From positions 1 through 64,000 of the forward strand of contig JABLXH010000014.1 in NCBI GenBank assembly GCA_013178155.1: DNA of 64,000 nt, written 5' to 3'. A program made the translations under genes and the position numbers. This DNA is from Armatimonadota bacterium (GTDB lineage Bacteria > Armatimonadota > Zipacnadia > Zipacnadales > UBA11051). Below, piece by piece: positions 1-18,438 of the stretch. The notes under the pieces are model-generated. The model saw nothing but the letters and a program-made list of their open reading frames with translations, was not told where the DNA came from and searched no databases. Positions within the stretch are counted from its first letter, which is position 1, and each line of letters opens with the position of its first letter.

Positions 1-2337
1 CGGACGGACACCTGGTACCGCGTGACGGTAGAGTGCGAACCCGACCGTGTCCGGCTGACTATCGCCGACATGGCGGGAGAGCCGGCCGCCGTCAGCGACT
101 GGCTGCCCCATGACGACCTGGCCGATCCCGGCGGAATCATGTTTGGGGCCCACAGTGGGGGCGGCCTGCGTGGCGCGGTCTTCGACAACGTCTGCCTGGA
201 GACCATGGGGGGTGTTCGGCCCCACCGCCTGGCGGCTCCGGTGGAACAGGCTCTGCTGGACGCCGTCGCCGCTGCGGAGCCCGCCCGCGCCTCGGAGCGC
301 CTCATCTTGCGTACGGGCGAGGGGCTGTATATAGAGCTGGACGGCAACGCGGCGGCCCGACGCCTGGATCTGCATGGCGAAAGCCTCCTGCCGCGCGGCC
401 CCCAGGGGCAAGGGGGCTTCTACGTCTGGGAGACCGATGGTGCGCCACGGTACGAGCGCTTTACGGGGCGGGTGGAACTGGCGCAGGGCGCTTCCTGTGA
501 CCTGCGGTGTGCGTCACTGGGTCTCCGGCTGACGGCGAGGTTCCGGGCTACGGCGGATCGGATCAGCGTCACGGGGGAGATGCGCGACACCACCGGCCGC
601 GACCGCCCCCTAGTACTGGTATGGGTGTTGCCTCTTGAGGCGACCGGCTGGACCTGGGGCGACAGCCTGCTGGGCGGAAGGCGCATCGGCGAGGCGGGGC
701 GCTACCACAGTTGCCCCACCTTCGGGCTGGGCGGCGCCAATGGCCGGCACCTGGTGGCGCCCTTCCCGTGGCAGAGCCTCAACCGTGGCAACACGGGGCT
801 CATGGTCGCTCGCCCCCTGGACGAAGCTCGCCTCATGTCCTGGTGGTATGACTACACCCCGCAGCAGCGCTTCCTGGCGGTGCGGTTGGAGCTGGGCCTT
901 TCCCCGGCGACCCGCAAGTTCCCCGGTCGAGCCGACTTCCGTCTTGACCTCACCGTCCTGCCCCGCGCGGAATGGGGGATGCGGGCCGCGGCGCAGCGTT
1001 ACTACAGCCTGTACCCGGACCTGTTCACCCGTCGGGTCAAGGCTGGACAGGAGGGGCTATGGACCCTGTGGGTGACCACCAAGGTGCCGCAGCCTGAGGA
1101 CTTCGCGCTCATCTTTCACGAACAGGAGCCTTACAGCGAGGACCGCGTGACCTTCGATGACGCCATCGGCGCGCTGTCTTTCACCTATGCCGAGCCGAAC
1201 ACACTCTGGCAGCGCTGCACGAACTGGGAGGCCGGGAAGCTGCAGTTGGATGCGTTCATGGCGGCCCTGCGCCAGCGTGCAGGCCAACCCGCCTCGGTGC
1301 CGAGCGATTACCCCTTCTATACCCAGCCCAAGCCCGTGCCGGATGCGGAGCTGGCCCAGGCGGCGCTGCAGAGCTTCGTGGGCCGCGACGGTCAGCCGAC
1401 TTCGTACTGGTCCGCCCCGCCGGATCGGATCGCCCTCAACTGCAACAGCGATCCGGAGCTGCCAGAGCCTAACCGCGCCAGTCTATGGTTCGACTACGAG
1501 GGCGTCCCGGCTCTGACCGACCCGCGAGTCGATGGGGCCTACATCGATTCGGTGGGCTGGAGTGCCTTCGACGCCGCCGAGAACTTCCGCCGTGAGCACT
1601 GGGTCACGGCCGACATCCCGCTGGTCCCCAGCTTCCATGACGGTGGAGTGGCGCAACTGGCGGGCTTTGCCCACCTCGAGTTGTACCAGGCCATCGCTGA
1701 GGCCATGCACTCCCGGGGCAAGCTGACCCTCGCCAACACCTTCCCTTACACCCACCTGTTCACGGCGCACCTGTTTGATGTGCTGGGTGCAGGGGAGGGC
1801 GCGGACATCGAGGCCTTCCACGACGCGGCGCGTCTGAGCTTCTGTCGTGCCCTGGCTTACCACAAGCCGGTGAGCCACATGAACTATGCCTACTTCCACC
1901 CTGACACGCCGCCGGAGGCGCGGGAGCGGGGACTGCAGCGCAACCTCCTGTACGGCGTCTGGCCGGGCTCGGGCAATGTGGGCGACCCGGCGCAGATCGA
2001 GCCCTTGCGACCGCTGTATCGCCGGTATATGCCGCTGTTCCGGGCGCTGGCGACGGCGGGCTGGGAGCCGATCCCGGAAGCCAGCGCGCAGCCGGAACAC
2101 ATCCTGGTGGAGCGTTTTGGGCAACTGGAGCAGGGCCCGCTATACCTGGTCGTGCACAACCCGTCCGCCGAGAGCGCGACGGCCACCGTGCGGCTCCAGG
2201 GCGCGCTGGCGAAGGGATCATGGCCGGCTGCCCTGCGGGACGAGGTGACTGGCGAGGAGCTGAGGCTTGCGCGGGGGACACTGGCGGTGAGCCTCAAGCC
2301 CTGGCAGACGGTGATGGTGGCGTTGCGGAAGCAGTGA
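1..2337 (+). CDS. Large glycoside-hydrolase-like protein, 5' end cut by window edge
   Basis: The reading frame is open from base 1, and the first residues (WYRVTVECEPDRVRLTI) look like the last strands of a LamG/DUF1080-type jelly roll. The GTG at 22 is therefore probably internal and the true start lies outside the window. A beta-rich domain follows, then from about residue 320 a TIM-barrel-like part with the segment DGAYIDSVGW (about residue 510) and a long aromatic-rich stretch, and finally a short beta-sandwich typical of the end of clan GH-D or DUF6259-like glycosidases. Function is inferred from architecture: probably an exported enzyme acting on plant or algal polysaccharide. No signal peptide can be seen because the N-terminus is missing. 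Substrate and catalytic residues are not assignable. Confidence 0.75.
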   Translation, partial: RTDTWYRVTVECEPDRVRLTIADMAGEPAAVSDWLPHDDLADPGGIMFGAHSGGGLRGAVFDNVCLETMGGVRPHRLAAPVEQALLDAVAAAEPARASERLILRTGEGLYIELDGNAAARRLDLHGESLLPRGPQGQGGFYVWETDGAPRYERFTGRVELAQGASCDLRCASLGLRLTARFRATADRISVTGEMRDTTGRDRPLVLVWVLPLEATGWTWGDSLLGGRRIGEAGRYHSCPTFGLGGANGRHLVAPFPWQSLNRGNTGLMVARPLDEARLMSWWYDYTPQQRFLAVRLELGLSPATRKFPGRADFRLDLTVLPRAEWGMRAAAQRYYSLYPDLFTRRVKAGQEGLWTLWVTTKVPQPEDFALIFHEQEPYSEDRVTFDDAIGALSFTYAEPNTLWQRCTNWEAGKLQLDAFMAALRQRAGQPASVPSDYPFYTQPKPVPDAELAQAALQSFVGRDGQPTSYWSAPPDRIALNCNSDPELPEPNRASLWFDYEGVPALTDPRVDGAYIDSVGWSAFDAAENFRREHWVTADIPLVPSFHDGGVAQLAGFAHLELYQAIAEAMHSRGKLTLANTFPYTHLFTAHLFDVLGAGEGADIEAFHDAARLSFCRALAYHKPVSHMNYAYFHPDTPPEARERGLQRNLLYGVWPGSGNVGDPAQIEPLRPLYRRYMPLFRALATAGWEPIPEASAQPEHILVERFGQLEQGPLYLVVHNPSAESATATVRLQGALAKGSWPAALRDEVTGEELRLARGTLAVSLKPWQTVMVALRKQ

Positions 2338-2346
2338 GACCCAGGC

Positions 2347-2730
2347 CTAGGCGCAGGCCGCATCGATGATGCGCAGTAGCACTTGCTCGACCTCCTCCGC
2401 AACCGGCCGCAGCGCTGGGTTGTTGAAAAGCTGCACCAGGCCCGTGGGCCGAAGTGTGCCCACACACACAGTTCCGCCCTTCTCATAGACCGCGATCCGG
2501 CAGGGGAGCATGGTGGCGAGTACGATCTCCTCCTCCAGCACCCGCTGGGCCTGGACCGGGTTGCAGACCTCGACGACCGTGCAACCGGGTGCCAGGTCCA
2601 CGCCCTTCTCCGCCAGCTTGCTCTTCAGGTCTATGGTGCCCAGGACCCCGAACTTGTGGTCCCTGGTCGCTGCCTCCACTCGGGTCACGACTTCGCCGAC
2701 GGTTCCGCGAGCTGTCCTCTCGTAGAGCAT
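2347..2730 (-). CDS. DUF302 domain protein
   Basis: A protein of 127 residues. The start is the ATG at 2728-2730, preceded by GAGGAGG about six bases upstream; longer readings have no Shine-Dalgarno. The whole protein fits the DUF302 fold: an N-terminal strand-helix, the central block VDLAPGCTVVEVCNP, then a segment that includes MLPCRIAVYE. Family members are small alpha/beta proteins of unknown function, often linked to redox or sulfur metabolism. The gene lies 11 bases downstream of the UroD-like gene on the same strand, so the two are almost certainly co-transcribed. No export signal is visible. Confidence 0.82.
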   Translation of the reverse strand: MLYERTARGTVGEVVTRVEAATRDHKFGVLGTIDLKSKLAEKGVDLAPGCTVVEVCNPVQAQRVLEEEIVLATMLPCRIAVYEKGGTVCVGTLRPTGLVQLFNNPALRPVAEEVEQVLLRIIDAACA

Positions 2731-2741
2731 GGCTTGCCTCC

Positions 2742-3815
2742 TCAGGCTCCCGCGAAGTCGTGGATTGCGCGCACGATCTGCGGGTAGCTGGTGCGCCAGA
2801 CGCCCGGCGGCACGTTCTCGGAGATCTGGATCTGCAACTGTCCCGAGGCGCCCGCCTGCTGCAGGATATCCATGGCAGTGGCGTAGATGACCTCGGGCTG
2901 CGCGAGATGGATGGAGGAAGGGAAGTTCATGAAGAGGCGCATGTAGGGCCACTGGGCCAGGGCGTCAGCCGGGCTGGTGTCGTTGTCCGGGGGGGGCGAG
3001 AAGGAGTCAATCCCCTGTAGTCCGGATTCGCCGATGGCGGCCCAGAGGGGCTTGAGGTCGCCATCCATGTGGGCGAAGACCTTCACGTCCACCTCGGCCA
3101 TCATGTCCGCCAGGCGCTGGTAGAGCGGCAGACAGTATTGCCGGAAATACCGTTCGCCGATAGTGGGGGCGGTGATGTTGTCGGGGATGTCTACGAAGTA
3201 CAGCGGCTCGTCTTTCGCCACGCGGTAGATGACCTCAAAGATCTCGAGCTCGATGCGGTTCAGCTCAGCGACCACCTCGGCCAGCAGGTCGGGATAGTCC
3301 ACGAGGTGCAGGGACAGGTCCTCGAGGCTGACCCACTGCACCCAGAGCTGCTGGTACGCCGTCCGGGCCGTGGCGACCATCGGCAAGCCATCCTCGCCCA
3401 GCTCCTGGCGGCTGCGTAAGAAGGCGTCGCGGGTCTCGGTGACCACTGTGTCCCGGAGATAGGCCAGCAGGACCTCGTAATCGGCCCGCTCCTTGACGTA
3501 GTGCGTGTGGGCGGCGGTGGTGCCATAGGTGGGCTCGTAGAGGCGCTCCTCAGTGAGCGTCCCCACCGGGGTCACCAGGGTGTTGCGTACTCCGCGCTTG
3601 CCGTTGATCTGCACCTCCTCCGAGCCGCCGCTGCAGTTGGGCGTGGCAAGCTGGTAGACATACATCCAGCGCAACAGCCCCAGGTTGTCGCGCCCGATAA
3701 GGTCCCAGACCTCCTGGTTAGGAAACATCCCATCGTATTGCACGAAGGGCACGCGGTCGAGTTCGTCCCCACGGATGACGGCGATGATGCGGTCGCGCAT
3801 ACAGGTCGGCTTCAT
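2742..3815 (-). CDS. Uroporphyrinogen decarboxylase-like (URO-D/MtaA/CmuA superfamily) protein
   Basis: A protein of 357 residues. The ATG at 3813-3815 has AAGGAAAGG nine bases upstream; the open frame continues further but without a ribosome site. The sequence has the URO-D superfamily TIM-barrel signature: an N-terminal RDRIIAVIRGDELDRVPF block, a PEVI-type C-terminal helix, and FAHMDGDLKPL where corrinoid methyltransferases carry the His-containing metal site. Genuine HemE is excluded by the lack of its conserved N-terminal substrate motif and by the context. Such diverged copies are abundant in polysaccharide-degrading Armatimonadota, Planctomycetota and Lentisphaerota, and their substrate is unknown. 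A role in methyl or demethylation chemistry is only an inference. First gene of a two-gene operon with the DUF302 gene. Confidence 0.8.
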   Translation of the reverse strand: MKPTCMRDRIIAVIRGDELDRVPFVQYDGMFPNQEVWDLIGRDNLGLLRWMYVYQLATPNCSGGSEEVQINGKRGVRNTLVTPVGTLTEERLYEPTYGTTAAHTHYVKERADYEVLLAYLRDTVVTETRDAFLRSRQELGEDGLPMVATARTAYQQLWVQWVSLEDLSLHLVDYPDLLAEVVAELNRIELEIFEVIYRVAKDEPLYFVDIPDNITAPTIGERYFRQYCLPLYQRLADMMAEVDVKVFAHMDGDLKPLWAAIGESGLQGIDSFSPPPDNDTSPADALAQWPYMRLFMNFPSSIHLAQPEVIYATAMDILQQAGASGQLQIQISENVPPGVWRTSYPQIVRAIHDFAGA

Positions 3816-3918
3816 CGGCTGCAACCTTTCCTTGCGGACCCCACCGCCCCCGGTCCGGGTCCGCCTTCTTGCGATAGCGGGACAGTACTGCCCACCTGAG
3901 CGCACGCGGGCCCTTGCC

Positions 3919-5562
3919 TCAGGGGGAGGTGGCCGGTCCCGCCACTAGCTTCACCTGGCCATAGATGCCGCCTACCCATCCCCAGTCAAAGACCCGGACC
4001 GCCACGAGGTTCCGCTGCCTCGGACGCAGGACCTCGCTGACCTCGACCAGGAAGCGGTTGCCGCGGCGGCCAACGCCGCTGACCGGAAGCTGCGTCCCGT
4101 TGACCCAGACCGTGGCCCCGTCGCTGATACCGCCGAACGCGAGGTAGAGCCGAGTGTCCGGAGGTGTTGGTGGCGGAGTGAAGCGCACGCGATACCATGC
4201 CACCCCATCTTCGGGCGCATAGCCCTGTGCCTCCCAGAAATCGCCAATGCGGATCCAGGCCCAGCGGCCATCATTGTAGCCGGGTCGCCACCATCCGGCG
4301 GCCGTTCCGCCGTCGGCGGGGTCCAGGCGGAAACGCCAGCGGCGCGGCATATCGGTGACGAGAGAGAAGGTGTCCCATAGGTCGGCAAAGGCCTTCTCCT
4401 CATCACCTCCGTCCAACTGACTGGGTGGGGGCACACTCACGATGCCGGGGGCCGAGGGCCGCGTGCGCGCCGGTGGCAGGGGTACCACTGGCTTCCGGGC
4501 GTTGTGCAGGGCTGCCAGGTACTCGGACGGTATGGGCACCCTGGTCTTCTGTCCGTCCCTGAGGACCTCGACCACGCCGCCTAGCCAGTCGAGGCTGTGC
4601 CACATCCACACGTATTCATCGGAATAGGCCAAAGCCCAGTGCAGGGCGTAGGCCAGTTCGTCAGGGGTGCGGTAGTTGGCCTGGAAATCTGACACATCGA
4701 AGGTGCGACCCTGGTCCAAGTTCACCCCGGGAGCATCCCACAGGCCAAAGGCGGCCCTGACATGGCGGCGATAGAGGTCTGGCACTGCGCTGCGGTCGCG
4801 TCCCTCGACCAGCACCTCGGCGCGACCCCGGGCGAACTGCGGCGGGATGCGGCTCCAGTAGGCCTGTTCATAGCCATCTACCAGTGTGGCCTCGCGCGGG
4901 CAGACGGATAGCATCCCGTCCACGAAGTCAGCCAGCAGTCCGCCCTGGGTGGGGCCAACCGTGAACAGGATCGTGATGTCCGGGTATTCCTCGGCCACTG
5001 CCTGCATGATCTCAGCGCCGCGGCGGCGGACCTGGGCCCGGTACTCCTCCAGGCTCTTCTCACCGGCATACCGCCGCCCCTGATAGGCGAAGGTGCCGAT
5101 GCCGGCATACTTCTCCGTGTCAAACATGATCCCCCGCAGCCCCGCCTGGCGGGCGAGGCGGGCCACCAGTCGCCAGTTGCTGATCACCCATGAGCAATCA
5201 TCGAACCAGTCGAACTGGTCCGGTTTCTCGCCCGAGAACTCGTAGACGATCCAGAAGTTGTCGGTCAGGCGCCCCCAGGGGACCTGGCGGAGCTCCGCAA
5301 CTACCGGCGCGATATCAGCCTCGCTGAGGCGCTGGTAGAAGACCATGGGCCCGCCCATGAGGAGACCGTCAATGGGCAACGACTGCCAGGAGGGCGCATG
5401 CTGGCGGGCGTATTCGGGCGAGATGGCTGCCCAAAGCAGCAGTTTCTTCCCGCGAACCGAGGGGCGGAAGTCATCCGCGGCCAGGGCAGTGCAGAGACTG
5501 ATGGCCACCAGCGACAGCGGGAGGAGCACGGACCGCGCGGGCCGACGAGTTGCTGCCAGCAT
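3919..5562 (-). CDS. Secreted TIM-barrel glycosidase-like protein with C-terminal jelly roll
   Basis: A protein of 547 residues starting at the ATG at 5560-5562, with GAGAGGAG eight bases upstream. The N-terminus is a clear Sec signal peptide (RRPARSVLLPLSLVAISLCTALA followed by ADD). The centre reads as a (beta/alpha)8 barrel (LLLWAAISPEYA, GIMFDTEKY, ILFTVGPTQGG). The last 130 residues (WYRVRFTPPPTPPDTRLYL, GATVWVNG, RNLVAVRVFDWGWVGGIYG) match the sugar-binding jelly roll of GH2-type enzymes. No family-specific catalytic pair can be named. Export and the carbohydrate-binding domain support a polysaccharide role. Confidence 0.78.
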   Translation of the reverse strand: MLAATRRPARSVLLPLSLVAISLCTALAADDFRPSVRGKKLLLWAAISPEYARQHAPSWQSLPIDGLLMGGPMVFYQRLSEADIAPVVAELRQVPWGRLTDNFWIVYEFSGEKPDQFDWFDDCSWVISNWRLVARLARQAGLRGIMFDTEKYAGIGTFAYQGRRYAGEKSLEEYRAQVRRRGAEIMQAVAEEYPDITILFTVGPTQGGLLADFVDGMLSVCPREATLVDGYEQAYWSRIPPQFARGRAEVLVEGRDRSAVPDLYRRHVRAAFGLWDAPGVNLDQGRTFDVSDFQANYRTPDELAYALHWALAYSDEYVWMWHSLDWLGGVVEVLRDGQKTRVPIPSEYLAALHNARKPVVPLPPARTRPSAPGIVSVPPPSQLDGGDEEKAFADLWDTFSLVTDMPRRWRFRLDPADGGTAAGWWRPGYNDGRWAWIRIGDFWEAQGYAPEDGVAWYRVRFTPPPTPPDTRLYLAFGGISDGATVWVNGTQLPVSGVGRRGNRFLVEVSEVLRPRQRNLVAVRVFDWGWVGGIYGQVKLVAGPATSP

Positions 5563-5666
5563 AGCGTCTGCTCCTCTCCCAGGGCACCGGGCACAGCCGG
5601 TATGTGGAGCCGGCAGTTCGCGGTAGCCCGGAGGCACTCCTCTTGGCGCTGGCCAGAATCAGCGGA

Positions 5667-5694
5667 CGCCCGCCACCGGGGCAGGCGGCGGGCG
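5667..5694 (-). terminator. GC-rich hairpin downstream of the YjbH-like gene
   Basis: CGCCCGCC (5667-5674) pairs perfectly with GGCGGGCG (5687-5694) across a 12-base loop, 29 bases past the stop codon of the minus-strand gene. There is no T-run on either side, so intrinsic termination is only possible. Confidence 0.4.
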
Positions 5695-5722
5695 CCAGGA
5701 CTTGAGGCCAGAAGAGTGAGCT

Positions 5723-6346
5723 TTAGCGCAGTACGTACTGGGCGCCCACGTACAGCTCGTCGCTGACGCTACCGACATTGAGTTTCATGCGCTCGCCAAA
5801 GGGCCAGCGGAGGGCCGCATTGACATCCTCACCGTCATACTCCACGAGTGCGCTGTAGTTCCGTCCGAGGAAGATCTCAGCCCCGGCGTAAAGACCGTCC
5901 ACCAGGGAATTGCTCTCGCCCCAGCCGGCCACGCCACGCACTTTGGTCTCGCCGACCTCGAAGTGCTTCTCGGCGCTGAAGAAGACAGTGCGATTGAACT
6001 CATCGGTCAAGTCGAAGACACCGACGCACAGGCCAAAATCCTGCTCGCCCTCGAACTCACCGAAGACCCGCCACTTGCCGGAGATGATCGCGTCCGACGG
6101 GCCGTTGTCGGGATTGACGTAGCCAGCAGACAGCTCCAGTCGGTCAATGACGCCGACGGCCATGTTGGCCGTGAACACTTCGTCGGTCACCAGATGGGCA
6201 CCAAACTCCATTCCGCCGGCATCAATCGTGTCCACCGTCGGCACTCGAAGCAGACCAGTGGGACCAAAGATGCTCAGGTCGGCAAGCGCAGGTCCGGCGG
6301 CTGCCAGAGCCACGACGACAACAGCAGTGATCACACCTGCCTTCAT
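5723..6346 (-). CDS. YjbH-like outer-membrane beta-strand protein
   Basis: A protein of 207 residues with a signal peptide (MKAGVITAVVVVALAAAGPALA). The mature start, IFGPTGLLRVPTVDTIDAGG, is the hallmark of YjbH-type proteins, and the rest alternates short amphipathic strands (FGAHLV, RLELSAGYV, ALRWPFGERM, YVGAQYVLR at the C-terminus), as expected for a small beta barrel. YjbH proteins act in the outer membrane in exopolysaccharide production, but they are much longer (about 700 residues), so this is a single short module. A GGAGG lies nine bases before the ATG. It has its own promoter (6414-6442) and a hairpin in its leader. It is one of the best hints in the window that the host is a diderm. 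Confidence 0.72.
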   Translation of the reverse strand: MKAGVITAVVVVALAAAGPALADLSIFGPTGLLRVPTVDTIDAGGMEFGAHLVTDEVFTANMAVGVIDRLELSAGYVNPDNGPSDAIISGKWRVFGEFEGEQDFGLCVGVFDLTDEFNRTVFFSAEKHFEVGETKVRGVAGWGESNSLVDGLYAGAEIFLGRNYSALVEYDGEDVNAALRWPFGERMKLNVGSVSDELYVGAQYVLR

Positions 6347-6374
6347 AGCTTGCTGCCTCCCTCCGTGTAAGCGA

Positions 6375-6392
6375 GCCCCACTTTCGTGGGGC
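6375..6392. other. Leader hairpin of the YjbH-like gene
   Basis: GCCCCAC (6375-6381) and GTGGGGC (6386-6392) form a perfect 7-bp stem with loop TTTC. It lies between the predicted transcription start of the YjbH-like gene (about 6407) and its ribosome-binding site, so it should be in the mRNA leader. It could also end read-through from the glutamate synthase operon, but no U-tract follows. Confidence 0.45.
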
Positions 6393-6413
6393 GCACGTCT
6401 TCCTCACGCGGCC

Positions 6414-6442
6414 ATTGTAGCAGCCCGCTGCCGCGACTGCAA
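6414..6442 (-). promoter_or_regulatory. Promoter of the YjbH-like gene
   Basis: On the minus strand TTGCAG (-35, 6437-6442) is separated by 17 bases from TACAAT (-10, 6414-6419). It lies between the end of the glutamate synthase operon and the YjbH-like gene. Confidence 0.5.
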
Positions 6443-6466
6443 CCTCAGATGCCCGCAGGCGGCGGT

Positions 6467-7201
6467 TCAGTAGGCGTATAGCTGCCCGTAGGGCCGTGCG
6501 GTGTGCGGCGTGATTCGGACGAACAGGCCGCCCACGATTTCGTCGAGCGGCAGGCTGAACTCGGCGCAGTAAGGCGCCAGCAGGTCACGGAGCACTTGCC
6601 GATCGTCGTCCCCGATCTCGGTCGCCGACACGCCAGGCCGCAACAGCGCCGGGTCCACCTCACCGCGCACGTACATGGTGCCGCCGTGCATTCCGGTGGC
6701 GCAGTACTTGCCCACCAGGGGCTCACCGGCGGGCTGATCGAGACCCAGGACGATGAGTTTGCCGCCGGCCAGGTACTCCCCGCAGAAGTCCCTCACCCGT
6801 CCCCCGATGATCACCACCGGCTCCTTGTCCAGGTATGACTTCATGTGGATGCCGATGCGGTAGCCCGCGTTGCCGCGCACATAGATGCAGCCACCGCGCA
6901 TCGAGTACCCCATGACATCGCCGGCGTGGCCTGGTATCACAACCAGGCCGTCATCCATGGTGTTGCCGATGCCGTCCTGGGCGTTGCCCGAGCAACGGAT
7001 ACGCGGCCCACTCATGAAGGCGCCCAGGTCGTTGCCCGGGATGCCCTCGACGCGGATGTTGACGGGCTGGTCAATGCCGCTGCCCAGGTAGCGGTGGCCG
7101 CAAACGTTGACAAGCTCAAACTCGGTCTCGCCCTCGGCCACGGCGGCCTTGATCTGCTGATTCAGCTGCCGGTAGTGCAGCCCGGAGGCATCAATTCTCA
7201 T
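6467..7201 (-). CDS. Glutamate synthase GXGXG (C-terminal alpha) subunit
   Basis: A protein of 244 residues that is entirely the right-handed beta-helix GXGXG domain, which forms the C-terminal part of classical GltB. Glycine-rich turns are visible at NVCGHRYLGSGI, GDVMGYSMRGGCIYVRGN and GGTMYVRG. In separate-subunit (archaeal-type) glutamate synthases this domain is an independent protein that packs against the FMN domain. Last gene of the operon; its ATG overlaps the stop of the oxidoreductase gene by four bases (ATGA), so translation is coupled. The related methylamine-glutamate methyltransferase (MgsB) is an alternative, but the adjacent ferredoxin and FAD proteins favour glutamate synthase. 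Confidence 0.88.
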   Translation of the reverse strand: MRIDASGLHYRQLNQQIKAAVAEGETEFELVNVCGHRYLGSGIDQPVNIRVEGIPGNDLGAFMSGPRIRCSGNAQDGIGNTMDDGLVVIPGHAGDVMGYSMRGGCIYVRGNAGYRIGIHMKSYLDKEPVVIIGGRVRDFCGEYLAGGKLIVLGLDQPAGEPLVGKYCATGMHGGTMYVRGEVDPALLRPGVSATEIGDDDRQVLRDLLAPYCAEFSLPLDEIVGGLFVRITPHTARPYGQLYAY

Positions 7202-8487
7202 ACTTCGATCCCCGGCCCCATGACGATATGCTTGCGATACTGCTTGGGCAGTGACAGCAGCCCCAGGTCGCGCTGGATGAGCTTCTCCTTGAAGCTGGAG
7301 ACATCCATCTGCGAGCGGATCAGACCAGTAATGATGCCGGCCCGGTCCACGTCGCCGACGAAGACGGCGCCGACGATGCGGTCGTTGACCAGGAACATGC
7401 GCCGGTAGCTCTTGCCGTCGGCGGAGCGATACTCCAGCACCTCGGCCCGACCCGGCGGCTCCACCAGGCCGACCGAGATGGTCGGCAGGCCGCAGACCTG
7501 GATCGAGTTCATGGCGATGCTGCCCTCGTAGGTCACGTCGGTGCCCGCCATGTTCCGCCCGGCGATCTCGCCCTGCAGGTAGGCAGCGGGCCAGATAGCC
7601 AGCGGGCGCGGCTCGCCGGTCAGCGGGTCATAGGCCTCAGCCACATCACCGGCCGCATAGATGTACGGGTCACTGGTCCGCAAGTGGTCGTCCACCAGTA
7701 CGCCGCGGTTCACACCCAGCCCCGCCTGCTGCGCCAGCTTGATGTTAGGGCGCACCCCGACCGCCATGACCACGACCTGCGCCGGGAGGCGCGATCCGCT
7801 GTCGAGGGTCACGCTCTGCACCAGGCCGTTGCTGCCGCCAAGGCTGGTGACAGCGGAGGACGTGATGACGCGAACCCGGTGGTCTTCGAGGGCTTGCTCC
7901 GCCATCTCGGAACCCGTTTCGTCCAGGGCGAGGGCCAGAACGCGGTCCCGCAACTCCACCACCGTCGTCTCCAGGCCCAGGGTCGCGAAGGCCTCCGCCA
8001 CCTTGACGCCGATCATCCCCGCCCCGACCACGACCGCCTGACGGACCTTGTGGCTGTTGATGAACTCCCGCACCCGCGCCATGTCCTCGTAGCGGGTGAA
8101 CGTGAACACACCCTGGAGGTCCACACCCGGCAGGTCCGGTACGATGGGGGTCCCGCCGGTGGCCAGCAGCAGCTTGCCATAGCGCAATTCCACGCCGTCT
8201 GCCAGGGTCACCGTATGCGCTGCCGGGTCAAGCCGCGTGGCCGCCCGGCCCAAGTAAGTGGTGACCTGCAGTTGCCGGTAGACGTCGCGGGGGCGGTAGT
8301 TCAGCCGCTCCTCGGGCACCTTGCCACAAAGCACATAGGTGATCAGCGGAGAGCAATAGCAGTGGGCCATCTGGTCCGACACGATGGCCATGCTGCCCTG
8401 CGCATCCTTCTCACGAATGGCCTCCATGGCGGCGATGGCGGCCGTGGAGTTGCCCAGGATCACGTAGTCATAGGTGTGCTCACTCAT
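7198..8487 (-). CDS. FAD/NAD(P)H-dependent oxidoreductase of the glutamate synthase operon
   Basis: A protein of 429 residues in the class of nitrite-reductase-type and rubredoxin reductases. An N-terminal FAD Rossmann motif of the GNSTAA kind is followed by the NAD(P)H Rossmann motif VVVGAGMIGVKVAE (about residues 150-163) and the FAD-contacting IYAAGDVAE near residue 270. The C-terminal 100 residues form the usual interface domain. In this operon it would move electrons from NAD(P)H, through the 4Fe-4S protein, to the FMN subunit, replacing the GltD small subunit. It overlaps the upstream ferredoxin gene by eight bases and the downstream GXGXG gene by four. Confidence 0.88.
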   Translation of the reverse strand: MSEHTYDYVILGNSTAAIAAMEAIREKDAQGSMAIVSDQMAHCYCSPLITYVLCGKVPEERLNYRPRDVYRQLQVTTYLGRAATRLDPAAHTVTLADGVELRYGKLLLATGGTPIVPDLPGVDLQGVFTFTRYEDMARVREFINSHKVRQAVVVGAGMIGVKVAEAFATLGLETTVVELRDRVLALALDETGSEMAEQALEDHRVRVITSSAVTSLGGSNGLVQSVTLDSGSRLPAQVVVMAVGVRPNIKLAQQAGLGVNRGVLVDDHLRTSDPYIYAAGDVAEAYDPLTGEPRPLAIWPAAYLQGEIAGRNMAGTDVTYEGSIAMNSIQVCGLPTISVGLVEPPGRAEVLEYRSADGKSYRRMFLVNDRIVGAVFVGDVDRAGIITGLIRSQMDVSSFKEKLIQRDLGLLSLPKQYRKHIVMGPGIEV

Positions 8488-8914
8488 AGATCAACGCCTC
8501 GTTCGGGCAGTGGGCCACACAGGCGGGGATGCCCTTGCCCTCGCACAGGTCGCACTTCGAGCCGACCTTGCCCTTTTCGTTGTCCATACGGATGGCGCCG
8601 AAGGGACAGACCATGACACAGCTCCAGCAGCCGACGCACCGCTCCTCATCGTGCTTGATCGCCCCGGTATGCGGGTCGCGGGTCATGGCCCCGGCGATGC
8701 AGGCCGCCACACATGGCGCGTCATCGCAGTGACGGCACTGCAGGGCGAAGGACATGGCGCCGTCCTCCTCGACCCGCACCGCCGGTTCCGGCAGGTTCTC
8801 CTGGTCCAGGAAGGCCTTGACCAGGGTATGGTGGCCAGAGTGCTGGAAGATGCAGTAGATCTCGCACAACCGGCAACCGATGCAGACTTCCTCTTTGGCG
8901 TATACGCGTTTCAT
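8480..8914 (-). CDS. 4Fe-4S polyferredoxin subunit (HycB/CooF-like)
   Basis: A protein of 144 residues. The ATG at 8912-8914 has GAGGAAGAG just upstream; the longer open frame has no ribosome site. It contains four cysteine clusters in the pattern of DMSO-reductase/formate-hydrogenlyase iron-sulfur subunits: CIGCRLCEIYC, CRHCDDAPCVAAC, CVGCWSCVMVCPFGAI and CDLCEGKGIPACVAHCP, enough for up to four 4Fe-4S clusters. It lies between the FMN synthase and FAD oxidoreductase genes, so it probably relays electrons between them. It is cytoplasmic (no signal). Confidence 0.88.
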   Translation of the reverse strand: MKRVYAKEEVCIGCRLCEIYCIFQHSGHHTLVKAFLDQENLPEPAVRVEEDGAMSFALQCRHCDDAPCVAACIAGAMTRDPHTGAIKHDEERCVGCWSCVMVCPFGAIRMDNEKGKVGSKCDLCEGKGIPACVAHCPNEALIYE

Positions 8915-9045
8915 TCGCTCTTCCTCGCTGACGGCACCTGGCCCCCGACCCCTCCTGAGAAAGCGCAGAGGGATGTACGTCGTGGCGCCACCGGTGTTGT
9001 TGCCCCGTCTCTCCATCCCACGGAGCGGGGGCGCAGGGGGTGAGG

Positions 9046-10551
9046 TTACCGTCCCACCGGCGCCACTTCCAGGATCTCCAGTTCTTCGGTCGTCAGGCCA
9101 ATACCACGCAGCATCTCCCGGTTGCCGCGCAGGCTGTCAATGCTGTTCATGCCCATGCCGCCCAGCATCTCCTTGATCTCCAGAGACCAGGCCCGCAGCA
9201 GGTTCGTCAGGGAGCGAGTGCCAATCTCGGGGTTCAGGCGCTTGGTCAGGTACGGATCCTGGGTGCAGATGCCCCAGGTGCACTTGCCCGTGTAGCAGCT
9301 CTGACACATGTGACAGCCCAGGGCGATGAGGGCGGAGGTGCCGATGTAGACGGCGTCGGCGCCCAGGGCGATGGCCTTGGCGATGTCGGCGCTGTTGCGG
9401 AAGCCTCCAGCCACGACCAGCGAGGCCTGGTGGCGAATACCCTCCTGGCGCAGGCGGCTGTCCACCGCAGCGAGGGCGAACTCGATGGGGATGCCCACGT
9501 TGTCGCGGATGACCGTCGGGGTGGCGCCGCTGCCGCCGCGTGTGCCGTCCATGGCCACGATGTCAGCCCCGGCCCGCACCGCGCCCACGGCGATGGGTAC
9601 CACGTAGTTGACCGCCGCGATCTTCACCGAGACGGGTTTGCTGTAGTTGGTGGCTTCCTTCAGGGCGTAGATGAGCTGCTTGAGGTCCTCGATGGAGTAG
9701 ATGTCGTGGTGCGGCGCCGGCGAGATGGCGTCCGAGCCCTCGGGGATCATGCGCGTCGCCGAGATCTCGGCACTGACCTTCTCGCCGGGGAGGTGGCCGC
9801 CAATGCCGGGTTTGGCGCCCTGACCGATCTTGATCTCCACTGCCGCCGCCGCATCCAGGTACTGCGGCGTGACCCCGAAGCGCCCCGAGGCCACCTGCAC
9901 AATGGCGTGATCCGCGTACTCATAGAGGTCACGGTGCAGACCGCCCTCACCGGTGTTGAAATACGTGCCGGCGTTCTTGGCCGCCCGCGCCAGGGAGTAA
10001 CAGGCATTGAAACTGATGGAGCCGTAAGACATGGCTGAAAACATGATGGGGGTATCGAGGGTCAGCAGAGGTCCCGCCTGGCTGACCGGATTGCCCTCGT
10101 CGTCGAACTCCACGCGTTCGGGCTTGGCGCCCAGGAAGGTCCGCAGTTCCATTGGTTCCCGCAAGGGGTCAATGGAGGGGTTGGTGACCTGCGAGGCATT
10201 GAGCACCAGGTTGTCCCAGTAGATGCGATAGTTCTTATCCGTGCCCATGCCGGTGAGCAGCATGCCACCGCTCTCGGCCTGGCGATGGATGGCACGCTGC
10301 ACCTGCAGGCTCCAGTTGGGGTGGGAGCGGCCGTGAAGCTCGCGCTCAGTGACGACCAGCGCCCCGGTGGGACAGAGGGTGACGCAGCGCTGGCACCCCA
10401 CACAGGTGCGCGGGTCACTGCTGACCCGGCCATCCTCCGGATCAATCTTCTGGGCATCATAGGAGCACTGGCGCGTACAGACCCCGCACTGGATGCACAG
10501 GTCCATGTCGCGCTTGATGATGAACTGAGGGTGAACTGTCGTCAGTGGCAC
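9046..10551 (-). CDS. gltB: Glutamate synthase large subunit, ferredoxin-FMN synthase domains
   Basis: A protein of 501 residues with a GTG start (10549-10551) and GGAGG ten bases upstream. The N-terminus carries two 4Fe-4S motifs (CIQCGVCTRQC and CVGCQRCVTLCP). From about residue 80 it is the FMN-binding glutamate synthase domain, with KIGQGAKPGIGGHLPG, the FMN-phosphate motif GTRGGSGATP and, near residue 420, the 3Fe-4S cluster signature CHMCQSCYTGKCTWGIC. It catalyses reductive transfer of the glutamine-derived ammonia to 2-oxoglutarate. The ferredoxin-fused form is typical of archaeal and anaerobic bacterial enzymes. 38 bases separate it from the upstream GATase gene. Confidence 0.92.
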   Translation of the reverse strand: MPLTTVHPQFIIKRDMDLCIQCGVCTRQCSYDAQKIDPEDGRVSSDPRTCVGCQRCVTLCPTGALVVTERELHGRSHPNWSLQVQRAIHRQAESGGMLLTGMGTDKNYRIYWDNLVLNASQVTNPSIDPLREPMELRTFLGAKPERVEFDDEGNPVSQAGPLLTLDTPIMFSAMSYGSISFNACYSLARAAKNAGTYFNTGEGGLHRDLYEYADHAIVQVASGRFGVTPQYLDAAAAVEIKIGQGAKPGIGGHLPGEKVSAEISATRMIPEGSDAISPAPHHDIYSIEDLKQLIYALKEATNYSKPVSVKIAAVNYVVPIAVGAVRAGADIVAMDGTRGGSGATPTVIRDNVGIPIEFALAAVDSRLRQEGIRHQASLVVAGGFRNSADIAKAIALGADAVYIGTSALIALGCHMCQSCYTGKCTWGICTQDPYLTKRLNPEIGTRSLTNLLRAWSLEIKEMLGGMGMNSIDSLRGNREMLRGIGLTTEELEILEVAPVGR

Positions 10552-10589: not shown

Positions 10590-11693
10590 CTACGCCGCCG
10601 CTTCCTTCGCTTCGTACAGATCGAACCGCACCGGCTGCCCGGCCACGACGGGCCAGGACTTCTCTGGCTGGCCGCCGGCAGCCCAGATTGCCGCTTCCTC
10701 GCTGGCGATGTAGCCCCGTGCGCCCTTCTCCGCCGCCACCAGCGGCCGCAGCTTCAGGCGGTCGCTCAGACCCACCATGCCCCCGTCATGCCCGGCGATG
10801 ACGGCAAAGGGGCCGTTGAGCAGCGCGCCGGGATAGGTCTGACGCATAATGGTCAGCATCCGCTTGCGGGCCGGATCCGTCACACGGTCCACTTCCTCCC
10901 ACTCCGGCGGGGCCATGGCCAGGGCGGCTTGCTCGATGGTGAGCCGGTGCCGCCGGCACAGCAGGTCCAGCATGTAGCTGATGACCTCAGAATCCGTGAA
11001 CAGCGTACACTCGTAGCCGAAGGAGGCCACGTAGCGCTTGTTCACGCCGTAGGAGGACAGCTCGCCATTGTGGACGATGGACCATTGCAGCAGGCCGAAG
11101 GGATGGGCGCCGCCCCACCAGCCACCGGTATTGGTGGGAAACCGGGTGTGAGCGATCCAGCAGTGGGCGTTGTATTCCTCCAGCCGGTAGTACTCGGCGA
11201 TGGGCTCGGGGTAGCCAACCCCCTTGAAAATGCCCATGTTCTTGCCGCTGGAGGCGATATAGCAGCCCTCCACGTCGCGGTTGATCGTCATGACCACGTT
11301 GACCAGATAGTCCTCAGGGTCGCGGCCAGCCAGTTTGTCCTCACGGGGCTGGACGAACCAGCGCCACAGGATGGGCTCATCGTGGATGGTCGGCGTGGGC
11401 CGGGTCTGGATGGGCTCGTCATGGCGGATGTTGCAGACCGTCTGCAGGTAGCTGCGCAGACGCTCCCGGGCGCCGTCGTCCAGGCCCATCATGTGCAGGC
11501 AGTAGTCGTCGGCATGCTCGGGGTAGATACCGTACCCGACATAGCCGGCACCGAGGCCGTTGCCGCGCTCACGCATGTTGGCCATGCCCCGGACGATGTC
11601 TTCGGCAGGCACTGCGGCGCGGGTGCGGTCCAGGATGCCGAGGGTGCCACAGGCGGCATGGATTTTGAATGGTGGGAGGCGATGCATATCCAT
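10590..11693 (-). CDS. Glutamate synthase glutamine amidotransferase (class II) subunit
   Basis: A protein of 367 residues. The ATG at 11691-11693 has AAGGA nine bases upstream; a longer frame exists but lacks a ribosome site. Class II GATases use an N-terminal cysteine. Here ACGTLGIL places that Cys at about residue 15, so a short propeptide (MDMHRLPPFKIHAA) must be removed, as in classical GltB. Other family marks are GNGLGAGYVGYG, a VHNGELSSYG glutamine-site motif and WIAHTRFPTNTGGWW. It hydrolyses glutamine and delivers ammonia to the FMN subunit. First gene of the five-gene operon and divergent from nrpR. Confidence 0.9.
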   Translation of the reverse strand: MDMHRLPPFKIHAACGTLGILDRTRAAVPAEDIVRGMANMRERGNGLGAGYVGYGIYPEHADDYCLHMMGLDDGARERLRSYLQTVCNIRHDEPIQTRPTPTIHDEPILWRWFVQPREDKLAGRDPEDYLVNVVMTINRDVEGCYIASSGKNMGIFKGVGYPEPIAEYYRLEEYNAHCWIAHTRFPTNTGGWWGGAHPFGLLQWSIVHNGELSSYGVNKRYVASFGYECTLFTDSEVISYMLDLLCRRHRLTIEQAALAMAPPEWEEVDRVTDPARKRMLTIMRQTYPGALLNGPFAVIAGHDGGMVGLSDRLKLRPLVAAEKGARGYIASEEAAIWAAGGQPEKSWPVVAGQPVRFDLYEAKEAAA

Positions 11694-11719
11694 GTGCGAC
11701 GGTCCTTGAAGGAAATAGC

Positions 11720-11749
11720 TTGCCGGAAGTTGTTTGCCGATGCTACAAT
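11720..11749 (+). promoter_or_regulatory. Candidate nrpR promoter
   Basis: TTGCCG (11720-11725), an 18-base spacer and TACAAT (11744-11749) on the plus strand predict a transcript with a leader of about 130 bases. The -10 box overlaps the -10 box of the divergent glt promoter, so the two polymerases should exclude each other. Confidence 0.45.
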
Positions 11750-11768
11750 CGACCCAAGCGCGAGTCAA
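11740..11768 (-). promoter_or_regulatory. Glutamate synthase operon promoter
   Basis: On the minus strand TTGACT (-35, 11763-11768) is followed by 17 bases and TAGCAT (-10, 11740-11745). The reverse-orientation CGGCAA (11769-11774) abuts the -35, so a repressor bound there would block polymerase. Confidence 0.5.
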
Positions 11769-11832
11769 CGGCAATTAACGCCCCGATTGTGGGGCTTCCG
11801 CGCAACATCTCGGAAACACGAGTGCGCCGCCA

Positions 11833-11850
11833 TTGCCGGATAACCGGAAA
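11833..11850. promoter_or_regulatory. Near-palindrome, candidate NrpR operator
   Basis: TTGCCGGATAACCGGAAA is an 18-bp dyad with 7 of 9 base pairs matching (TTnCCGGnTAnCCGGnAA). It is in the nrpR leader, about 36 bases before the probable start codon. Methanogen NrpR binds GGAA-N6-TTCC-type dyads; this bacterial site differs, so the assignment rests on symmetry and position. Confidence 0.4.
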
Positions 11851-11885
11851 AATGGGCTGATTCTGCCCCCTATGAGGTGATTCGT

Positions 11886-12857
11886 TTGCCGGAAATAGGA
11901 CGGAAGGAAGCTGCTATTCTGCGCGTCTTGGGCCAATACAGCATGCCGCTGGGTGCCGCTGCCATCGCCCGGGAACTGGTCTCTTACGGCATTGACCTCA
12001 CCGAGCGTGCCGTTCGTTACCACCTGCAGAGACTGGACGATGCCGGGCTGACCGAGAGCCGGGGACGGAGCGGCCGTGTCCTGACCGACGCGGGCCGGGC
12101 CGAGTTGGACAACGCGCGCGTCACGGACAAGGTGGCCCTGGCCTTCGCTCGCCTGGAAGCGCTGGCGTACCAGACCACCTTTGACCCGGCCACGGGGCAT
12201 GGACTGGTGGTGCTCAATATCTCGCTCTTCCACCGCTCGGACTTCGACCACGCCCTCCGGGCCATGCGGCCGGTGTTCTTGTCGCGCCTGGCGACCAGCG
12301 ACCTGGTGGCGGTCTTTGACGCCGGGCAGAGCGTGGGCGACATGGTAGTGCCGCGGGGCATGGTGGGGCTGGGGACAGTGTGCAGCGCCACCATCAACGG
12401 CGTGCTGGTCCGTGCCGGGATCCCGTTGCATTCGGAGTTCGGCGGGCTGATGGAGATCATTGGACATGAACCGGCAAGGTTCACCGAGATCGTGATGTAC
12501 CGGGGCACGTCCATTGACCCGGTGGAGATGTTCATCAAGAGCCAGGCCACCTCCGTGGGCCAGGCGGCGACGACGGGGCGGGGCAAGGTCGGCGCCGGCT
12601 TCCGCACCTGCCCCTCGGTGGCGCGGGCACATGTGCTGCGGCTGCTGGACGACCTGTCGCCCTGGAGACTGCGCGGTGTGGTGGCGGTCGGCAATCCGGG
12701 CCAGTCACTGCTGGAGATGGAGGTCGGCATCGGCCGGGTGGGAATAGTGGTGTGCGCCGGGCTGAATCCGGTGGCCGCTGCCGAGGAGGCAGGAATCCCC
12801 ACGGTCAGCAAGGCCCTGGCGACGGTCTTTGAGTACACGGACCTACAGCCCGTCTGA
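11886..12857 (+). CDS. nrpR: NrpR-type nitrogen regulator (wHTH plus single NrpR/DUF128 domain)
   Basis: A protein of 323 residues. An N-terminal winged helix (RKEAAILRVLGQYSMPLGA to RGRSGRVLTDAG, about residues 5-80) is followed by one NrpR (DUF128) domain with NISLFHRSDFDHALRAM, GLGTVCSATINGVLVRAGIP, SEFGGLMEI and GKVGAGFRTCPSVAR. In methanogens NrpR is the 2-oxoglutarate-responsive repressor of nitrogen-assimilation genes; many archaeal forms have two such domains, this one has one. The start is chosen as TTG 11886 because GAGGTGA (11874-11880) sits five bases before it. The GTG at 11877 overlaps that Shine-Dalgarno and would add three residues. It is divergent from, and very probably regulates, the glutamate synthase operon. 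Confidence 0.88.
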   Translation: MPEIGRKEAAILRVLGQYSMPLGAAAIARELVSYGIDLTERAVRYHLQRLDDAGLTESRGRSGRVLTDAGRAELDNARVTDKVALAFARLEALAYQTTFDPATGHGLVVLNISLFHRSDFDHALRAMRPVFLSRLATSDLVAVFDAGQSVGDMVVPRGMVGLGTVCSATINGVLVRAGIPLHSEFGGLMEIIGHEPARFTEIVMYRGTSIDPVEMFIKSQATSVGQAATTGRGKVGAGFRTCPSVARAHVLRLLDDLSPWRLRGVVAVGNPGQSLLEMEVGIGRVGIVVCAGLNPVAAAEEAGIPTVSKALATVFEYTDLQPV

Positions 12858-16743: not shown

Positions 16744-17556
16744 TCAGGCCTCGCCCTTGTCGAGAGACGACAGGAACTCGGCCAGCAGGTCGGCAAGGCT
16801 GTCGGCGGGCCGGGGGGGTGCCGGCGGCTCGGCGGCGTACTCCGGCAAGAGACGGCCGGGAGTGACGGGCGAGATGTCCTTGACCACCTCGGCCACTTCG
16901 CGCTGCAGGGTGTCGAAGGTCTCCTCGATGCTGCGGCTTGCGTCTACCACGGTGAAGCCGAACTCCTCTGTCATGTGGTCGAACTGGCGCAGCAGTGCGG
17001 TCTGGTGCTGGACGAAGCATTCATAGAGATCGCTGGCCGCGATGTAATCGGCCCCCGCCTCCCAGTAATCGAAGCCGCCGCTGGCCAGAACTCGCGGCAC
17101 CAACTGGGGCACACTGATCTTCAGATAGTAGATCGCTGAGGGGCGGATGGCGAAGCCGTAGACCTTGCGGAGCCACTCCCCACTCATGCCGCGTACCGTC
17201 GCCCGGGCGATGAGCGAGTAGACGTACCGGTCGGTGAGCACCACGTAGCCGGCCCGCAGGGCGGGGATCATCTCGTTCTCCAGCCGATCGGCAAAGTCGG
17301 TGGCGTAGTAGAGGGCCTGGGTCATGCGGCCCATGGTGTGGCCTTCGCGGGCCTGGCGCAGGTGCCGCCCAGCCAGCACGGAGCGTGAGAGGCCGGTGTC
17401 AAAGACGGCGATGCCACTGCTTTCCAGCCAGCGTTTGAGGAGGCGGATCTGCGTGGACCGGCCGACGCCGTCGGTGCCTTCCAGGACGATCAGACGTCCC
17501 GGGTAGTCGTCAGTCTGCAGGTTGGGCAGCGGATGCCAGTAGCTTTCGATGCGCAT
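16744..17556 (-). CDS. Thymidylate kinase-like protein, Walker A Lys replaced by Arg
   Basis: A protein of 270 residues with a thymidylate-kinase core. The P-loop is EGTDGVGRST (residues 26-35), so the invariant Walker A lysine is Arg33. The TMPK DRY motif is present in VLTDRYVYSL, and the LID region contains DYWEAGADYIAASDLYECF. About 45 acidic, proline-rich residues are added at the C-terminus (PPAPPRPADS...DKGEA) compared with ordinary Tmk. Lysine normally contacts the ATP beta- and gamma-phosphates; whether Arg can replace it here is unknown. It lies immediately downstream of an orthodox paralogue on the same strand. Confidence 0.8.
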   Translation of the reverse strand: MRIESYWHPLPNLQTDDYPGRLIVLEGTDGVGRSTQIRLLKRWLESSGIAVFDTGLSRSVLAGRHLRQAREGHTMGRMTQALYYATDFADRLENEMIPALRAGYVVLTDRYVYSLIARATVRGMSGEWLRKVYGFAIRPSAIYYLKISVPQLVPRVLASGGFDYWEAGADYIAASDLYECFVQHQTALLRQFDHMTEEFGFTVVDASRSIEETFDTLQREVAEVVKDISPVTPGRLLPEYAAEPPAPPRPADSLADLLAEFLSSLDKGEA

Positions 17557-17664
17557 GGCCAGGGTCCTTGTGAGTGACTGGTGGGCGCCACACCAACCCC
17601 GGTGGCTGCCGCTGGCTGGCAGAGTGACCGCGGCTGGCAGCGGCGTCTCCCACAGGAGAAGCGT

Positions 17665-18348
17665 TCAGAAACCCCGCCGGTCCGGACTGCGCAGCAGCTT
17701 GTCCAGGTGTGGTCGGACAATCTCCCGCACCTGCTCCTGCTGGTCCGGAATGGGCAGGGTGGCATCAATCACGGTGAAATGAAACTCGTCAACCATCTTC
17801 TCGTACTCCTCCAGGATCTTGCCCTGGAAGATACGGAAGGACTCATAGGGGTCATCGCTCCAGCCCATGTCCAGGCCGGCCTCGTAGTACTTCAGCTCCG
17901 GCCGACCCACCATGATGCGGCTCAGGGCCACTTCCAGCGGAACACGGAAGTAGAAGGCGACCGTGGGTTCGACCGCGATGTCGTACAGCTCACGCACCCA
18001 TTCGGGGTGGCAGCCCCGCGCGACGTCGCGTGCAAAGGCGGTGAAGGCATAGCGGTCGGCAAGGACCGCCGCTCCTGCCTTGAGCGGCGGTACGATGTTG
18101 CGCTCCGTTCGGTCGGCAAAGTCGGTGGCATGGATAAGGCTAAAGGTGGTGGGCGTCAGCAGGTGGCGGTCCTTGCCGCGCTTCGTGGTACGCTTGACCA
18201 GCTCGGAGGAGTTCCACTCGCTGAAGAAGGCGCTGTAGCCCTGGCTCTGCAGCCACGAAAACAGCAGATGCATCTGGGTGCTCTTGCCGGATCCATCTAT
18301 GCCCTCAACCACAAACAGCTTTCCCGGAAGATCACTGATCGGCCGCAT
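17665..18348 (-). CDS. tmk: Thymidylate kinase
   Basis: A protein of 227 residues starting at the ATG at 18346-18348 behind GAGGTCC. The Walker A motif EGIDGSGKST is intact (Lys22). The dNMP-binding DRY is present in VLADRYAFTAFARD, and the LID segment RPELKYYEAGLD is shared in outline with the neighbouring paralogue. It phosphorylates dTMP to dTDP for DNA synthesis in the cytoplasm. It has its own promoter (18409-18438) and is followed, 108 bases on, by the Arg-type paralogue, so both may be on one message. This copy is the more likely housekeeping enzyme. Confidence 0.87.
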   Translation of the reverse strand: MRPISDLPGKLFVVEGIDGSGKSTQMHLLFSWLQSQGYSAFFSEWNSSELVKRTTKRGKDRHLLTPTTFSLIHATDFADRTERNIVPPLKAGAAVLADRYAFTAFARDVARGCHPEWVRELYDIAVEPTVAFYFRVPLEVALSRIMVGRPELKYYEAGLDMGWSDDPYESFRIFQGKILEEYEKMVDEFHFTVIDATLPIPDQQEQVREIVRPHLDKLLRSPDRRGF

Positions 18349-18408
18349 GGGCTCGGACCTCGTACGTGCGAACTCGGCGGCATTCTGACTGCCCCTGGCG
18401 GGGCGTCC

Positions 18409-18438
18409 AGTATACCATGAAGTCGGGAAGAAGGACAA
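18409..18438 (-). promoter_or_regulatory. Promoter of the tmk pair
   Basis: On the minus strand TTGTCC (-35, 18433-18438), an 18-base spacer and TATACT (-10, 18409-18414). It lies just after the aminotransferase gene and about 60 bases before tmk. Confidence 0.55.

Follow-up and report, generated by a model that had tools for sequence, protein, structure and literature searches.

The window analyzed here, a stretch of 64,000 nucleotides from an Armatimonadota bacterium, carries a gene for the nitrogen regulator NrpR divergent from a glutamate synthase (glt) operon, which raises the question of whether the region between them holds an operator through which NrpR could control both. NrpR has been characterized in methanogens; that of Methanococcus maripaludis is a 2-oxoglutarate-responsive repressor of nif and glnA, and the targets of methanogen-type NrpR are glnA and glnK-amtB. 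Its presence in “certain Bacteria” has been mentioned (PMC2723118), and we found no report of a bacterial NrpR operator or target in the open literature. Here, the exact operator, the target operon and the divergent promoter are predicted for a bacterial NrpR.

The divergent gene pair

Judged by its domains, the gene on the plus strand encodes a bacterial NrpR, 323 aa long from the TTG at 11886. The predicted protein harbors the domains that define the family, an N-terminal winged-helix DNA-binding domain (Pfam HTH_12, E 2.6e-18, residues 13-77) and an NRD regulatory domain (Pfam NRD1_2, E 8.3e-76, residues 89-324), and it matches MJ0159, the solved M. jannaschii protein (PDB 3nek, E 6.7e-20). 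It is the single NRD1_2 protein found in this genome. The minus-strand operon divergent from it codes for a split, archaeal-type glutamate synthase, with five subunit genes identified by Pfam (Table 1). Elsewhere in the window, two neighboring minus-strand genes (17556-16744 and 18438-17665, together 16744-18438) resemble thymidylate-kinase paralogues by eye.

Table 1. Genes and predicted control elements of the nrpR-glt locus, in window coordinates
Feature	Position	Strand	Details
GXGXG subunit of glutamate synthase	6467..7201	-	Pfam GXGXG, E 1e-32
Pyridine-nucleotide oxidoreductase subunit of glt operon	7198..8487	-	Pfam Pyr_redox_2
4Fe-4S subunit of glt operon	8480..9016	-	Pfam Fer4_11
Glutamate synthase FMN/Fe-S subunit	9046..10551	-	Pfam Glu_synthase, E 1.2e-140
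Glutamate synthase amidotransferase subunit, first glt operon gene	10590..11693	-	Pfam GATase_2
Operator A2, GGAAATAGCTTGCC (GGAA-N6-TKCC)	11711..11724	.	GGAA and TGCC invariant in 6 aligned loci
Predicted nrpR promoter, TTGCCG-18-TACAAT	11720..11749	+	-10 at 11744-11749; promoter scan
Operator A1, GGAAGTTGTTTGCC (GGAA-N6-TKCC)	11725..11738	.	abuts A2; alignment and position
Predicted glt promoter, TTGACT-17-TAGCAT	11740..11768	-	-35 at 11768-11763, -10 at 11745-11740
CGGCA half-site by the glt -35 (inverted copy of the initial annotation)	11769..11773	.	alignment; role tentative
GlnR-like box, GCAAC-N6-GAAAC	11802..11817	+	centered ~76 bp upstream of predicted glt start
Site B, TTGCCGGATAACCGGAA (outward-facing half-sites, TKCC-N8-GGAA)	11833..11849	.	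nrpR leader
nrpR Shine-Dalgarno, GAGGTG	11874-11879	+	six bases 5' of TTG start codon; sequence
nrpR	11886..12857	+	winged helix and one NRD domain; TTG start, M-P-E-I-G-R-K

A predicted tandem operator over two overlapping promoters

The initial annotation had singled out five copies of the hexamer TTGCCG in the intergenic region. All are present, on the plus strand at 11720, 11734 (placed one base too early, at 11733, in that annotation, whose other three plus-strand positions stand), 11833 and 11886, and inverted at 11769-11774; as described, three of them (11720, 11833 and 11886) extend to TTGCCGGA. The density of the hexamer peaks here, with 5 copies in 172 bp and at most 3 elsewhere in the window. 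A chance cluster in a hexamer-rich sequence would agree with its enrichment across the whole window (90 copies, 41 expected) and with the fact that one of the five copies (11886) is accounted for by coding. However, when the window was simulated 200 times with a fifth-order Markov model, only 2 runs (1%) reached five copies, both the phylogenetic footprint and the spacer statistics given below oppose chance, and for site A it is already refuted by conservation in relatives, so that we consider this explanation extremely improbable.

We aligned the window with five relatives that have the divergent nrpR-glt pair (L003, L004, L005, L006 and L008). The conserved element, site A, consists of two abutting 14-bp palindromes, GGAA-N6-TGCC followed directly by GGAA-N6-TGCC. 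The blocks GGAA and TTGCCGGAA are invariant across the six loci, and the TKCC half-site of the second palindrome reads TACC or TGGC in three of them. Absence of the repeat from relatives keeping the gene pair had been proposed as a check on the initial idea; the footprint is present in all five, and the idea survived. Across the 5.5-Mb genome the tandem pattern is matched once, by A1 and A2 together. Neither TTGCCG nor TTGCCGGA was retained as a functional unit, as each corresponds to the junction of two GGMA-N6-TKCC palindromes. The half-site beside the glt -35 is aligned as CGGAA in 4 of the 5 relatives.

The overlapping divergent promoters described near these copies are also recovered, their -10 elements having two bases in common, and RNA polymerase could therefore not occupy both at once. 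Two divergent promoters of sigma-70 type were found against an average of 0.1 in shuffled sequences, and by eye the overlapping layout is retained in the alignment for glt at 6/6 loci and for nrpR at 5/6. Transcription is predicted to start at about 11733 (minus strand) for glt and about 11756 (plus strand) for nrpR. A1 extends across this glt start and the spacer of the nrpR promoter. A2 occupies +9 to +22 relative to the glt start, overlapping the nrpR -35, and seven genomes have an operator at this position (+9/+10).

The fifth TTGCCG, first counted as a separate operator copy, is explained most simply by translation: TTG CCG GAA at 11886 is the start codon of nrpR followed by Pro and Glu codons (M-P-E), and we assign it this role because homologues begin with M-P-E, encoded by (A/T)TG-CCG-GAA in 15 loci, and GAGGTG stands six bases upstream.

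Spread of the operator across genomes

Across 17 glt upstream regions we counted 19 instances of the pattern GGMA-N6-TKCC, which fall in 13 genomes, against 0.5 expected, and 17 instances are left without the window's own genome; the loci and genomes of one order are kin, so these counts are not independent, and unlinked and distant cases weigh more. In the same 17 upstream regions, spacers other than six (GGMA-Nk-TKCC) give at most 8 occurrences each, and the maximum over 1000 shuffles was 3 at k=6. The tandem pattern has 7 matches in the 41 genomes of the order, 5 of them upstream of glt, and its reversed control none. A search of the window's genome for the single operator CGGMA-N6-TKCCG was set aside as too degenerate to define a regulon (77 sites versus 33 in the control).

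The operator is retained at glt operons that do not adjoin nrpR (among them L113, L117-L119, L124 and L128). It is found at such operons in G004 and G024 (tandem in both), G013, G028, G019 and G029, and in one-mismatch form in G035. The form AGTCGGCA-N6-TGCCGACT is found in G019 and G029 and in the nrpR-linked G031. In G004, whose nrpR is carried by a different contig, the glt contig (L113, 1200-1500) nevertheless keeps sites A and B and the start-codon-like core TTGCCGGAA with unchanged spacings of 112 and 53 bp, and no nrpR was detected after that core. This reads as a rearrangement in which the control region stayed behind. As TTGCCGGAA is thus retained where no nrpR was detected beside glt, the core at 11886 may have an additional operator role besides that of start codon.

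Among more distant cases, AGTAGGTAACCTATTACCTACT lies in the region separating nrpR from the glt-type operon of a MAG labelled Actinomycetes (L032). In Dehalococcoidia, the promoter of a cluster that includes nrpR and a gene with a glutamate-synthase domain carries ATACGGTA-N6-TGCCGTAT (L033), L034 has a site identical to it, and L041 has GGTA-N6-TGCC 5' of glt. The L033 cluster (2007-8966, one strand) comprises genes for a PPDK-type ATP-binding protein and a glutamate-synthase-domain protein, hisH-like and hisF-like genes, and nrpR.

Relative to the predicted glt start, seven genomes have the operator at -5 and/or +9, and in another eight loci it falls within -5 to +15; the 15 loci with an operator in that range include three Dehalococcoidia contigs and the MAG labelled Actinomycetes. 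This is a repressor position, as transcription would be blocked by a protein bound there. In G013, G024 and G028 the operator lies upstream of the predicted -35, unlike simple start-site blocking.

The operator is present in 14/17 genomes with glt and intact nrpR and in 0/3 with glt but without intact nrpR (G012, G017 and G018; p=0.018), a comparison to be read with the incompleteness of several genomes in mind (G012 and G017 are ~84% complete), as the “absence” of nrpR may be a gap. No operator was found near the amidotransferase gene in G009, G015 and G022, which have both nrpR and glt. The initial annotation had also proposed to look for the motif at glnA and amtB, where it was not found: none of 28 glnA/amtB upstream regions carries the operator. 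The methanogen-type targets are thus missing, which concerns the regulon and not the membership of the protein in the family.

In the sister family f3, nrpR is divergent from a glutamate dehydrogenase (gdh) gene (L014, L016, L018 and L020) or from a GMP-synthase-like ATPase gene (L009-L012). Two genomes have CGGAA-N6-TTCCG between nrpR and gdh, a third has AGGAA-N6-TTCCG there, and the operator is absent upstream of gdh genes unlinked to nrpR (G000, G001, G004 and family f6). Direct CGGAA-N6-CGGMA repeats are seen upstream of nrpR in most of these eight f3 loci.

Site B and auxiliary half-sites

Site B is found in 7/7 loci, 53-54 bp from the start-codon core and at a fixed distance of 111-113 bp from the site-A core. 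As it lies in the nrpR leader, it could instead act as an RNA hairpin, and by eye a 6-bp stem, CUUCCG/CGGAAG, could form in the alignment for L004, L005 and L008. But a T-to-G change in the window and L003 breaks this stem (G opposite A) and agrees with the operator half-site, which tolerates T or G; the fixed A-B distance also speaks for a DNA operator, and an Rfam search gave no match to any family. We therefore consider the hairpin unlikely.

CGGMA/TKCCG half-sites are ~6-fold enriched upstream of nrpR and favor an 11-bp period in several orientations, with 15 pairs in the nrpR-glt set (0.08 expected) and 12 in family f3 (0.04 expected). Together with site B, these auxiliary half-sites suggest more NrpR contacts or looping.

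A possible second input

The window has a GlnR-like box between the glt promoter and site B. The GlnR box of actinomycetes is gTnAc-n6-GaAAc (PMC10704036); likewise, GAAAC-N6-GAAAC direct repeats occur here at glnA and amtB, with a variant upstream of glt, and this box and the NrpR operator are distinct motifs. The repeats are found upstream of 14/28 glnA/amtB genes (7/8 for amtB), and the window's genome has 8 occurrences, of which 5 lie at glnA or amtB. Loci that carry them include L052, L053, L055, L051, L049, L054 and L056 for amtB and L060-L065 for glnA. Up to four successive GAAAC units with an 11-bp period precede amtB in this genome. Contigs C61 and C202 of genome G000 carry the same glnA region with equal scores (L063 and L069), probably through assembly redundancy.

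A GlnR-like activator acting on glt is plausible on these grounds. NrpR would then repress locally, and a putative GlnR-like activator of glnA and amtB would also activate glt through the box at 11802-11817, an arrangement that adds to the NrpR explanation and does not exclude it. It is favored by the frequency of the repeat at glnA and amtB, by its rarity elsewhere in the genome and by the boxes lying between nrpR and glt, a variant one in the window and exact GAAAC-N6-GAAAC in L004 and L006, but the window copy is a variant and none was found in that region of L003, L005 and L008. We regard this two-input switch as possible, at somewhat below even chances.

Proposed mechanism

The suggestion of the initial annotation that one regulator, NrpR, could switch both genes is borne out as a possibility, a conserved operator sequence straddling both promoters and the regulator being a bacterial NrpR by Pfam. 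In our reading the region is probably a bacterial NrpR operator, at which NrpR would repress glt and its own gene and be released by 2-oxoglutarate. The sequences directly give the operator, how it is conserved and placed, and the fact that it co-occurs with nrpR, and from these we infer NrpR binding, repression and the inducer, the release by 2-oxoglutarate being inferred from methanogens. The tandem operator (11711-11738) would cover the glt start and, in the divergent nrpR promoter, both the -35 and the spacer. With nitrogen plentiful, NrpR would sit on it and block both promoters; with nitrogen short, 2-oxoglutarate would bind the NRD domain, NrpR would be released, and glutamate synthase and NrpR would be made.

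Instead of NrpR, some other regulator that happens to control both genes might use the predicted operators, since the genome encodes further regulators and the assignment to NrpR comes from sequence comparison. However, the motif fits the known NrpR consensus, tracks glt and gdh in nrpR genomes and is missing where nrpR is missing, which makes another regulator quite improbable. Returning to NrpR, a wider proposal, which we consider rather doubtful, is that it may be a widespread bacterial repressor of ammonia assimilation that kept the archaeal operator geometry in different bacterial lineages, its target switching between glutamate synthase and glutamate dehydrogenase. It would contact CGGMA half-sites spaced one turn (11 bp) apart, whether inverted, direct or outward-facing, and the fixed spacings of 112 and 53 bp would reflect a looped complex over the control region of nrpR and glt.

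Comparison with known NrpR systems

The operator had been thought unlike that of methanogens, whose consensus is GGAAN6TTCC (PMC2723118). The tandem GGAA-N6-TKCC contradicts this, since its 6-bp spacer is that of the consensus and its half-sites depart from it at one position. More broadly, a GGNA-N6-TNCC operator, as characterizes the NrpR family, is found at promoters of nitrogen-assimilation genes.

The predicted system resembles that of M. maripaludis in the NRD and winged-helix domains of the regulator, the half-sites and 6-bp spacer of the operator, its location at the promoter and a target in nitrogen assimilation. It differs in its bacterial host with promoters of sigma-70 type, in a target that is glutamate synthase (or glutamate dehydrogenase) and not nif, glnA or amtB, in the one NRD domain of the window protein, and in the two operators abutting at 14 bp, with T or G tolerated at one half-site position. 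The methanogen nitrogen switch thus appears to work in bacteria on ordinary bacterial promoters.

The NrpR operator of M. mazei is GGTA-N6-TACC (PMC3177094). GGTA-type half-sites with N6 at the promoter of a glt or nrpR operon, as for NrpRI of M. mazei, are found in L032, L033, L034 and L041, which differ in being bacterial contigs; the half-sites of the window are GGAA/GGCA. Taken together, these comparisons suggest that an archaeal-type repressor, along with its DNA code, survives on the promoters of bacteria and is directed there at glutamate synthesis instead of glutamine synthetase.
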